Source: Kiloniellaceae bacterium
GTDB taxonomy: Bacteria > Pseudomonadota > Alphaproteobacteria > Kiloniellales > J153
NCBI GenBank assembly: GCA_021776135.1
Contig: JAJFGL010000013.1
Location: 1-40,263, forward strand
Direction: 5' to 3'
DNA length: 40,263 nucleotides
Of the stretch, positions 22,715 through 32,661 are shown in pieces. The notes under the pieces are model-generated. The model was not told where the DNA came from. It saw only the letters and a program-made list of their open reading frames with translations, and made no database searches. Position 1 is the first letter of the stretch. Each line of letters begins with the position of its first letter. The translations under genes and the position numbers were made by a program.

Positions 22715-22762
22715 GATTTAAAATGTCTCGTGGCTTGGTGAAGAAGAGGGGCCGGTACCGGC

Positions 22763-22791
22763 GCGGCATCCTAAGTGTCCACAGACCCTAG
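22763..22791. repeat. Solitary end related to the 30570-30840 palindromic element
   Basis: The 29 bases ending CTAAGTGTCCACAGACCCTAG match the right arm of the element at 30811-30840 (GCGGCATCCTAAGTGTCAAC, then AGGCCCTAG) with only two or three changes. No partner arm is nearby. The CTAG at its edge supplies the stop codon of the cold-shock gene (TAG read on the minus strand at 22790-22788). Confidence 0.75.
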
Positions 22792-28419: not shown

Positions 28420-29495
28420 AGCGCCGCCTCGCCGATTATCCAGCCATCGGCGTAGATCTGCGTGTGGCCCGGATCGAACTGGATATGGGCGGACCCGGTG
28501 GCCACGCTCATGCCTTCGGGAACCAGAAGTTGGATGCGGACATCGCCGTTGCGCGTATCGACGATGCGATAACGCCCGGCGTCTTTCACTTTCTCGATCT
28601 CGACCGGAATGCCGTGGTCGCTAAAGCTGACGAATTCCGGCCGCACGCCGATCTCCAGGCGTTTATACCCGGCCGCCGGCCGCGCCGCGCCGGCGGCCGC
28701 GATGGGGTGGCCGGCGAAGCAGGGGCCGCCGCCGCCGAAGTCGCACGGCAGGACATTCATTCCCGGCGAGCCGATGAAATGACCGACGAAGGTATGGTGC
28801 GGTTTCTCGAACAACTCGATCGGCGTGCCGACCTGCACCACCGTGCCTTCGTGCATGACCACGACCTGATCGGCGAAGGTCATGGCCTCGGTCTGATCGT
28901 GGGTCACATAGATCATGGTCGAACCGACCCGCCGGTGAATCTCCTTCAGCTTGGAGCGCAGAACCCATTTAAGGTGCGGGTCGATCACGGTCAGGGGCTC
29001 ATCGAAGAGGATGGCGTTGACCTCGGCGCGGATAAGGCCGCGTCCCAGGGAGATTTTCTGCTTGGCATCGGCGGTCAAGCCGGCGGCCTTGTCGTGAAGC
29101 GTGCCTTCCAGGTCCAGCATCCGCGCGATCTCGCCAACCCGCGGGCCGATGTCGCGGTCGGAAACGCCCCGGTTGCGTAAGGGAAAGGCAAGATTGTCAT
29201 AGACCGTCATGGTGTCGTAGACGACCGGAAACTGGAACACTTGGGCGATGTTGCGTTGCTCCGGCGGGATTTCGGTCACGTCCACATCGTCAAACTCTAT
29301 GCGTCCGCTGGAAGGAACCAGCAGGCCCGAGATAATGTTCAGCAAGGTCGTCTTACCGCACCCCGAGGGACCGAGCAGGGCATAGGCGCCGCCATCGGAC
29401 CATTCGATGTCCAGGCTCTTGAGCGCCCAATCCTCGTCGCCGGCGGGATTCTTGAGATAGCTGTGTTTGAGTTGGCGCAGGCTGATCTTGGACAT
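28416..29495 (-). CDS. glpT: ABC transporter ATPase GlpT (degenerate signature motif)
   Basis: A 359-residue MalK-type ATPase with C-terminal OB-like regulatory domain. Walker A is GPSGCGKT (42-49), Walker B AILFDEP (161-167) and the switch His is His199 in YVTHDQTEAM, all intact. The signature motif is not: aligned with the usual LSGGQ-x-QRVA-x-GRAL, the sequence reads LTADAKQKISLGRGL (140-154), so LSGGQ is replaced by LTADA. Its own ATP site would be completed by the intact LSGGQ of GlpS, but it cannot give a normal signature to the other site. Start at 29495 overlaps the glpS stop (TGATG). Confidence 0.92.
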
Positions 29496-30562
29496 CAGGC
29501 GGACACCAACTCGTTGCCGGCGCCAAAGTAAATGCAGTGCGATGTATCCAAAAAGAATTCCGCCTTGGTTCCGATCTCGAAGGGATGAATGCCTTGGGCT
29601 TGCGAGACCCAGGTCCGGTCCTCGATCTGGAAATGGACGATGCTTTCGGAACCGCTGAATTCCGTAATCAGAACCTCGCCCAGGATCGGCACCGCGCCCG
29701 CGCGCCCGGACGCCGGCGAAATATGATGCGGGCGAATCCCGACCGTATAGGCATGATCGCTCAAGCTCCGTTGGCTCTCCGCCACCGGCCAGGATATGCG
29801 CTCGTTAAGGATGAAAGTATCCCCCTGCTTGGTGACGGTTGCGGTGTTCATGGGCGGGTCCGCGAAAACCTGGGCGCTGCGTAAATCCTTGGGGCGGCGA
29901 TAGATTTTTTCGGTCTTGCCGAACTGCGTCACCCGGCCTTCGTGGAGGGTCGCCGTGTGCCCGCCGAGCAGTAGCGCCTCATTCGGTTCGCTGGTGGCAT
30001 AGACGACCGTGCAGCCGCGGTTTTCGAACATTTTCGGTAACTGATCGCGCAATTCCTCGCGCAGTTTGAAGTCGAGGTTGGCGAGCGGCTCGTCCAACAG
30101 CACCAGATCGGAATCCTTGACCAGGGCCCGGGCCAGGGCCGTGCGCTGCTGCTGGCCGCCGGAAAGCTCGTTGGGGCTGCGCTCAAGAAGCGGGGTGAGG
30201 TTGAGCAGCTCCGCGACCTCGCCTACGCGCCTGCCGATTTCCGCCGCCGGCGTGCGCTGGATGCGCAGGGGCGAGGCGATGTTCTCGAAGACGTTGAAAT
30301 TGGGATAGTTGATGAACTGCTGATGGACCATGGAGACATTGCGCGCCTGAACCGGCGCCCGGGTCACGTTCTTGCCGTTGAACCAGACCTCGCCGGAGGT
30401 CGGGCGGTCCAGGCCGGCCATCAAATGCAGCAGGGAGGTTTTACCGGACAGGGTGGTGCCCAGCAGGATGTTGAAGCCGCCGTCCTCGAGCTTGAGGTCG
30501 GTGGCGTAGATATGAGTTTCCGCGCCCACGCGTTTCTCAATCTGTTTGAATTCAAGACTCAT
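29495..30562 (-). CDS. glpS: ABC transporter ATPase GlpS (switch His missing)
   Basis: A 355-residue MalK-type ATPase. Walker A is GTTLSGKT (35-42), LSGGQ is intact (133-137) and Walker B is LVLLDEP (153-159), but the H-loop histidine is replaced: YATSEPNEAL puts Ser191 where the family has His. The C-terminal domain resembles that of GlpT. The start is the ATG at 30562 (MSLEFKQIEKRV); a longer frame to 30586 lies inside the palindromic element and adds non-conserved residues. Only seven bases separate the element from this start, and there is no clear ribosome binding site, so its translation may be weak or depend on upstream structure. It would pair with GlpT as an unequal dimer. Confidence 0.9.
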   Translation of the reverse strand: MSLEFKQIEKRVGAETHIYATDLKLEDGGFNILLGTTLSGKTSLLHLMAGLDRPTSGEVWFNGKNVTRAPVQARNVSMVHQQFINYPNFNVFENIASPLRIQRTPAAEIGRRVGEVAELLNLTPLLERSPNELSGGQQQRTALARALVKDSDLVLLDEPLANLDFKLREELRDQLPKMFENRGCTVVYATSEPNEALLLGGHTATLHEGRVTQFGKTEKIYRRPKDLRSAQVFADPPMNTATVTKQGDTFILNERISWPVAESQRSLSDHAYTVGIRPHHISPASGRAGAVPILGEVLITEFSGSESIVHFQIEDRTWVSQAQGIHPFEIGTKAEFFLDTSHCIYFGAGNELVSA

Positions 30563-30569
30563 GGGCGCC

Positions 30570-30840
30570 CTAGGGCCTGTTGACACTTAGGATGCCGCCG
30601 AGGCGGGATCGGATTATCCCACCCGTTAGGAGCGGATGGCGCCGTGTGGCAGGCCCCCCACAAGCCGTTCGCGACGCGGCGGGTGGGATAATACGACCCG
30701 TCCCAGCGGGATTGGGCCAAAATGACGCGAGGCCGCGTCGCTTGTCCTTGAATATGCGCCGCATGTCCTGCGTCCTCGCTCCTAACCTCGCGTCATTCTG
30801 GCCCAACCGCGGCGGCATCCTAAGTGTCAACAGGCCCTAG
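30570..30840. mobile_element. 271-bp palindromic MITE-like element with 30-bp perfect terminal inverted repeats
   Basis: The ends 30570-30599 and 30811-30840 are perfect 30-base reverse complements, beginning CTAGGGCCTGTTGACACT. Inside are further paired segments: GGATTATCCCACCCG with CGGGTGGGATAAT, and TTGGGCCAAAATGACGCGAG with CTCGCGTCATTCTGGCCCAA, so the whole transcript would fold on itself. There is no transposase; open frames on each strand are by-products of the symmetry. CTAG at both edges could be a target-site duplication or part of the ends; such short targets are known for the IS5/IS427 group, but I cannot confirm a parent. It separates glpV from glpS in the operon. Confidence 0.85.
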
Positions 30841-30864
30841 GAATGATCGATAATTAACGCTTGT

Positions 30865-30893
30865 CTCCCGGAGGGAAAAACACCCTCCGGGAG
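30865..30893. other. Stable hairpin after glpV
   Basis: CTCCCGGAGGG (30865-30875) pairs perfectly over 11 bases with CCCTCCGGGAG (30883-30893), loop AAAAACA. It follows the glpV stop on the minus strand. No T-run follows on the coding strand, so partial termination or protection of the glpV transcript from 3' decay is more likely, which would favour excess binding protein over membrane subunits. Confidence 0.75.

Positions 30894-30924: not shown

Positions 30925-32661
<1,737 letters not shown>

Follow-up and report, generated by a model that had tools for sequence, protein, structure and literature searches.

A MITE-like palindrome with two conserved inverted arms upstream of a putative glpS gene in a Kiloniellaceae bacterium

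Introduction

MITEs whose ends match those of insertion sequences (ISs) are known (PMC2718517, PMC2229807, PMC10969869). In two of these, RUP, Correia/NEMIS and the R0 and R2 elements of P. fluorescens SBW25 appear as short, multi-copy elements with terminal inverted repeats (TIRs) and IS-shared ends, and RUP and Correia carry TA at their termini (PMC2229807, PMC2718517). The nearest two-arm family that we met is CIR of Caulobacter and Brucella, described as having two arms and a linker with TA at the ends, but a length near 110 bp, no TIR and a GANTC site within a loop (PMC2229807).

Here we analyze a palindromic element in a 40,263-nt stretch of DNA from a Kiloniellaceae bacterium (GenBank assembly GCA_021776135.1, contig JAJFGL010000013.1, positions 1 to 40,263; hereafter the window). 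It shares TIRs, small size, multiple copies, TA at its termini and IS-like ends with the elements above. Unlike RUP, Correia/NEMIS, R0 and R2, its family carries between the ends a module of two arms whose loops are conserved, and this module persists across lineages in which the ends differ. We could not find described such a large family of transposase-less mobile palindromes with two conserved hairpins and ends that vary by bacterial lineage; subscription journals were mostly outside the literature search, so an account of the two-arm family may exist. R200 (320 bp) and R26 (352 bp), judged by description, could be gammaproteobacterial members (PMC2718517).

Results

The window carries a 265-bp palindrome composed of TIRs and two inverted arms. 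A sequence-only reading of this DNA had described a palindrome with 30-bp repeated ends, and this description is accurate: the element proper ends in 30-bp terminal repeats and has TA on each side. Its parts are as follows, R1 being a covariance model of the arm.

30571..30839, no strand: whole element with the flanking TA on each side (putative TA duplication)
30573-30837: element proper, 265 bp, with TA at 30571-30572 and 30838-30839
30573..30603, plus strand: left TIR, GGGCCTGTTGACACTTAGGATGCCGCC...
30807..30837, minus strand: right TIR
30605..30699, plus strand: arm A, consisting of stem, TTAGGAGCG, apical hairpin, GCGACGCGG and stem; model R1 match (G000:C5:30605-30699; arm included in the model)
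30713..30806, minus strand: arm B, the arm A core on the opposite strand with apical AGGACATGC...GCATATTCAAGGACAA; model R1 match (G000:C5:30713-30806; arm included in the model)
30701..30711, no strand: centre separating the arms, small hairpin TCCC-AGC-GGGA, read from the sequence, with a similar centre in other copies
22757..22791, minus strand: isolated terminal repeat, probably left over from another copy

The outer inverted stretches (30569-30603 and 30807-30841) comprise 35 nt at 97% complementarity and are accompanied by two inner inverted repeats. The predicted DNA fold of the palindrome has an energy of -107.3 kcal/mol (z -12.1), equalled by none of 200 shuffles. As expected of a MITE, the element is short, bounded by TIRs and free of a transposase gene, with room for at most 88 codons; no parent transposase lies within the examined part of the window either, as the sequence-only reading had noted. 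A 23-mer from the element end occurs three times in the window at up to three mismatches (zero expected), namely at the two ends and at a lone end at 22766-22788, which is part of the lone terminal repeat of the same family that has neither partner nor arms. Frames of 86 aa that start at a TTG within the TIR stay open through the element on both strands, and among 47 elements with window-type ends the frame is open over nearly the whole length in 76 of 94 strands, G018-type elements excepted; these long frames may follow from GC content and palindromy. A scan for promoters and terminators gave a single promoter-like and a single terminator-like site on the plus strand and none on the operon strand.

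The element is dispersed in many copies through its own genome. The host assembly (3.96 Mb in 70 contigs) contains 93 matches, in both orientations; among the best 30 of these, 17 have a length of 239 nt or more (85-100% identity) and 12 reach a contig end. These long matches, at least 17 in number, represent the dispersed copies typical of a MITE, and the other copies that the sequence-only reading had proposed to look for exist. In a genus-level blastn search, several copies were found in G002, one in G003 and none in G001, the counts being lower bounds with seven candidates scored per genome. The window element has no blastn match among plasmids. Several variants occur among the copies: four (L014, L017, L026 and L027) have a B arm with one or two extra 27-nt units, and three (L038-L040) are arm-less forms of about 60 bp.

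Flanks and empty sites point to insertion at TA with duplication of the dinucleotide. In alignment A1 of the copies, YTA is found at 16 of 17 visible left flanks and TAR at 17 of 18 right flanks, the exceptions being L019 (CCA) and L012 (CAG); the outer bases Y and R vary independently. For an empty-site test, the two flanks of each of six elements were joined and looked for in G018, G048, G052 and G053, which belong to another genus, one with close species. Element L307 has TA on both sides and its sister site, TC-TA-AT, a single TA. L299, flanked by TA and TT, corresponds to a sister site GC-TA-G, again with a single TA, and L303, flanked by CA and TG, to AA-TA-GG (in G048 AA-TT-GG, i.e. AATTGG). 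L308 has TA on both sides and a sister site CTTTAACC (TTTAA). An end remnant remains in the sister site of L301, and the site of L305 is occupied in both genomes. Together with the flanks in A1, these sites are best read as a TA duplicated on insertion, the target-site duplication of a MITE, which among the six elements tried is intact in L307 and mutated in others (L299 and L303) and which would also apply to the window copy. Among 103 distinct ends of the window TIR type, TA occupies codon positions 1-2 of a frame that stays open upstream over 145 codons or more in 39 cases, and the other frames in 22 and 9, ends from one element or one genome not being independent in this count. Many copies seem to be placed on stop codons, TA plus G giving TAG; the window copy is an exception.

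The window copy inserted into a spacer that already separated two genes. The junction has the following features, whose gene names are assumed from the operon order.

29495..30562, minus strand: glpS, ABC ATPase (PF00005), ATG at 30562
30925..32661, minus strand: solute-binding protein gene upstream of glpS, presumably glpV (PF01547)
30865..30893, minus strand: GC-rich hairpin after glpV, outside the element

The distance from the first TA to the glpS ATG is 8 nt. The orthologous glpV-glpS spacer measures 135 bp in G002, 141 bp in G001, 138 bp in G005 and 133 bp in G003 and is free of the element in all four relatives, while the window spacer minus the element measures about 95 bp. The comparison of glp operons that had been suggested therefore agrees with the mobility claimed for the element, which is multi-copy and absent from the orthologous spacers, and supports the conclusion that the window copy arrived after the split from these four relatives. 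The effects proposed for the insertion fared less well. It had been taken to interrupt a tightly overlapping operon, and the glpS/T, T/P and P/Q junctions do abut or overlap, but the relatives' glpV-glpS spacer is already 133-141 bp long. A loss of the glpS ribosome binding site had been suspected, but no clear Shine-Dalgarno sequence before glpS is visible by eye in the relatives either. Finally, a joint role with the hairpin at 30865-30893 had been considered, but a GC-rich hairpin folds in the spacers of all four relatives. In the four relatives (L052, L053, L054, L055) the hairpin occupies the same place behind the binding-protein gene with a different sequence. An in-frame GTG in the TIR (30586; TIR stretch 30573-30586) would lengthen glpS by 8 residues (MSTGPRAP).

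A regulatory RNA structure belonging to the glp operon in cis is very improbable. Such a structure would accord with the strong folding of RNA from the operon strand (z -13.3, computed with the glpV hairpin included) and with the G.U excess on the motif strand described below. It was rejected because its position is not conserved: the element is missing from all four relatives with an orthologous spacer and many copies lie elsewhere, so it is not the single-copy, positionally conserved sequence that the sequence-only reading had named as the mark of a regulatory RNA. Moreover, the window element has no Rfam match at the gathering score, and a relaxed search gave only a chance match to mir-490 (E 0.73). 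In the transcript the glp copy would form a long hairpin and would be a mostly passive insertion, although this hairpin could be an RNase III target or a brake on downstream expression. We expect the effect on glp expression to be small, since the genes of the relatives are already separated by a hairpin-bearing spacer.

IS5-family elements with similar ends are candidate sources of the transposase. In relatives, IS5-family elements of about 840-856 bp have ends similar to the window TIR. One of these, in G013, is 856 bp long, lies at a TA and has the ends TAGGGCCTGTGGACATT (15/17 to the window TIR) and TGGGTCCCGTGGACATT (12/17); its 250-aa transposase matches NF033580 with 275 bits (cut-off 110). 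Elements of 853 bp in G009 (ends 14/17 and 13/17), 841 bp in G052 (13/17 and 14/17, with a DUF4096 match split over two frames) and 850 bp in G002 of the same genus (13/17 and 14/17, around a broken transposase) were also seen, and G004 has a single end (15/17) near a contig end. Since shuffled loci reach best single matches of 11-14 of 17 and the agreement between element and IS ends spans only about 17 nt, what carries the assignments in G009, G052 and G002 is the pair of ends at the distance expected of an IS. An IS sharing the element ends, which had been suggested as a check, was found in relatives over about 17 nt but not in the host assembly, whose four DUF4096 hits have other ends: TAGGTCACATACC (C1, C8, C59) and probably TAGGTTGAGAACC (C25). 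Two of the three own-genome copies of the TAGGTCACATACC-ended IS are cut off at contig ends. In G002 (C25, L295, at about 2259) an IS5-family IS with TAGGTCACATACC ends abuts an element end, with the TA in common. The window element resembles IS5 insertion sequences in ends such as TAGGGCCTGTGGACATT at a TA and differs from them in that they are about 850 bp long and encode a transposase. The arms were also considered as IS leftovers; the only arm match in 36 IS5-type loci (L263) lies in a separate element beside the IS, and this origin was rejected.

We consider it likely that the element is a MITE moved in trans by an IS5-family (DUF4096/DDE_Tnp_1) transposase that would recognize TAGGGCCTGTTGACA-like ends and insert at TA, with YTAR preferred. 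Between its ends it carries two inverted, imperfectly paired arms with conserved internal loops.

Membership in three other families of elements is improbable. A TA target with YTAR preference is typical of IS630/Tc1-mariner elements, and an IS630-type parent was tried on this ground. The host genome has no DDE_3 match, and 23 DDE_3 loci from 13 of 20 relatives contain neither paired matching ends nor an arm by R1; only single-ended look-alikes were seen (L130 and L143, and L139 for another TIR type), and a loose arm pattern gave scattered chance matches. With no IS630 bearing the element TIR among these loci, derivation from this family is improbable.

REP/BIME elements moved by a Y1 (RAYT) transposase also have paired inverted hairpins, and the arm core resembles Pseudomonas REP (GTAGGAGCG..CGCGA) in its letters. 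A single Y1 protein is present in the host genome, a RAYT-like transposase at G000:C11:32454-32747 (L247) in a 229-aa open frame without an arm nearby. Y1 matches occur in 22 of 40 genomes, yet ten genomes with arms have none (G003, G004, G013, G055, G138, G164, G242, G254, G305, G382), and none of 30 fetched Y1 loci has an arm at E 0.1. The element, unlike REP/BIME, has TIRs and a TA target with single-TA empty sites and shows no association with RAYT genes. We therefore rejected a RAYT parent and regard this origin as unlikely.

Membership in the CIR family would fit the two arms, the TA termini and the alphaproteobacterial host range described for CIRs (PMC2229807), and by eye two distant elements (L103, L112) show GANTC in their outer parts. 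GANTC is absent from all 17 elements of the window type, in loops as elsewhere, and the 265-bp element with its 30-bp TIR, compared by description, departs from CIR in length and ends, which makes membership quite improbable.

The arms keep their loops and their pairing while stem sequences change. Each of the two arms has a stem of about 20 bp whose sequence varies between lineages with pairing kept, around a kept internal loop TTAGGAGCG...GCGACGC. The layout is stem, TTAGGAGCG, apical part, GCGACGCGG and stem, the arms being mutually inverted around the small hairpin; the arms of the layout set, like the 155 arms below, were collected by motif, so that loop conservation there is partly built in. 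A blastn query with the whole element recovered members from other families of the order, in which most stem positions differ and the loops are kept. Apical type A (GGCGCCGTG...CACAAGCC) closes as a hairpin, and in type B (AGGACATGC...GCATATTC) alternating G.A pairs could arise between the flanks GCGAGGAC/GGACGAGC. Near a contig start lies one arm of a third kind (L006 32-128, G000:C2), whose apical hairpin is different (CTAGGAGCG..GCGACGCCG). Across 16 arms, 84.8% of stem cells are paired compared with 56.2% in shuffled controls, both-side changes are found in 86 cells compared with 28.5, and slid versions pair at 34-45%. Alignment A4 was fitted to the model, and a comparison using it leans towards the model.

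The distribution of mismatches suggests that the arms function in folded, single-stranded form, either as RNA or as ssDNA. On the motif strand, stem positions 1-17 of 155 arms (45 clusters at 80% identity, with each position and type counted once in a cluster; arms with fewer than 12 of 18 Watson-Crick pairs were dropped) contain 62 G.U and 24 A.C events, an excess that depends on omitting position 18, which was decided after the data were seen. Over the same positions the ratio is 43 to 15 for B arms and 21 to 10 for the others, 56 to 23 with 29 clusters, 73 to 27 with 73 clusters, and 94 to 33 in raw cells. Including position 18 gives 62 to 34 (45 clusters), 56 to 29 (29) and 73 to 54 (73), and an even 94 G.T to 99 A.C in raw cells (of 2790); 66 of these 99 A.C cells are at position 18, where 84 of 155 arms pair and A.C is fixed in many related arms. 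An excess of G.U suggests folding of the motif strand alone, since a double-stranded cruciform would treat both types alike, G.T on one strand being A.C on the other.

The arms may accordingly be a functional RNA or ssDNA element that is selected as such and merely travels in the MITE, a reading that concerns the arms only and is compatible with an IS5-driven MITE; we find it plausible but lean slightly against it. It is favored by loops that are kept while stems covary, by the G.U excess in both arm types and by the persistence of arms under different ends. It is weakened by the arm-less short forms and by Rfam, which gave no match in the arms of 20 loci; the five matches elsewhere in these loci are tRNAs, suhB and a cobalamin riboswitch.

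Arms are widespread and their ends turn over. Of 61 genomes searched in the order, 34 have matches to model R1; the class search gave 29 of 385 genomes and the phylum search 52 of 398, with 41 of these 52 outside the class. The three genome sets overlap, and copy counts are lower bounds with at most 69 candidates scored in the order search and at most 10 in the class and phylum searches. Eight out-of-class loci were fetched (L325-L332), three of which have a second inverted arm at E<=0.01 and two (L328, L331) full ends TAGGGCCTGTTCACAT... on both sides. An exact B-arm pattern occurs in 84 stretches of GTDB genomes; the 80 listed include Kiloniellaceae, Pelagibius, Roseospira, Oleispirillum, Erythrobacter longus and Mesorhizobium sp. 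Root157. Four plasmid records, two from Azotobacter chroococcum and one each from Halomonas and Pseudomonas aeruginosa, match element L329 at 74-78%, and no feature is listed at these matches in gene tables that are incomplete, the Halomonas record having one feature in total. Lineage-specific ends include TAGGGCCTGTTGA, TACCAA..TGATA, TAGGAGCCTGTCTGAG, TAGTACCCCCTATGAGG, TAGAGCGGGTCAGGATTG and others, most of which start with TA. Two apparently one-arm elements, L097 and L078, have different ends again (TAGAGCGTTTTCAGGG... and TAAGGGGCTGCTCAGG...).

Discussion

The palindrome upstream of glpS is a mobile insertion, and such palindromes should be interpreted with caution: they are not to be read as local regulatory structures. 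Elements of this kind may also explain some assembly breaks in the genomes that carry them.

In a MITE the ends are expected to be kept while the middle drifts. In this family the loops and the pairing in the middle are retained from one lineage to another, and it is the stems and ends that change; this implies that the arms have a function under selection. The arms would be kept because some factor, on this proposal a protein, reads them as folded single strands of RNA or ssDNA. We tentatively propose, with some doubt, that the arms are an ancient structured module of alpha- and gammaproteobacteria. This module would act in folded form as RNA or ssDNA, would be read by a predicted widespread factor and would have repeatedly changed its transposon ends. 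If this is true, the conserved part of the family is the hairpin loop and not the ends, and the inverted layout gives one sense arm on either strand. With the covariance model and the many natural variants that the arm family supplies, the arm reader could be sought.
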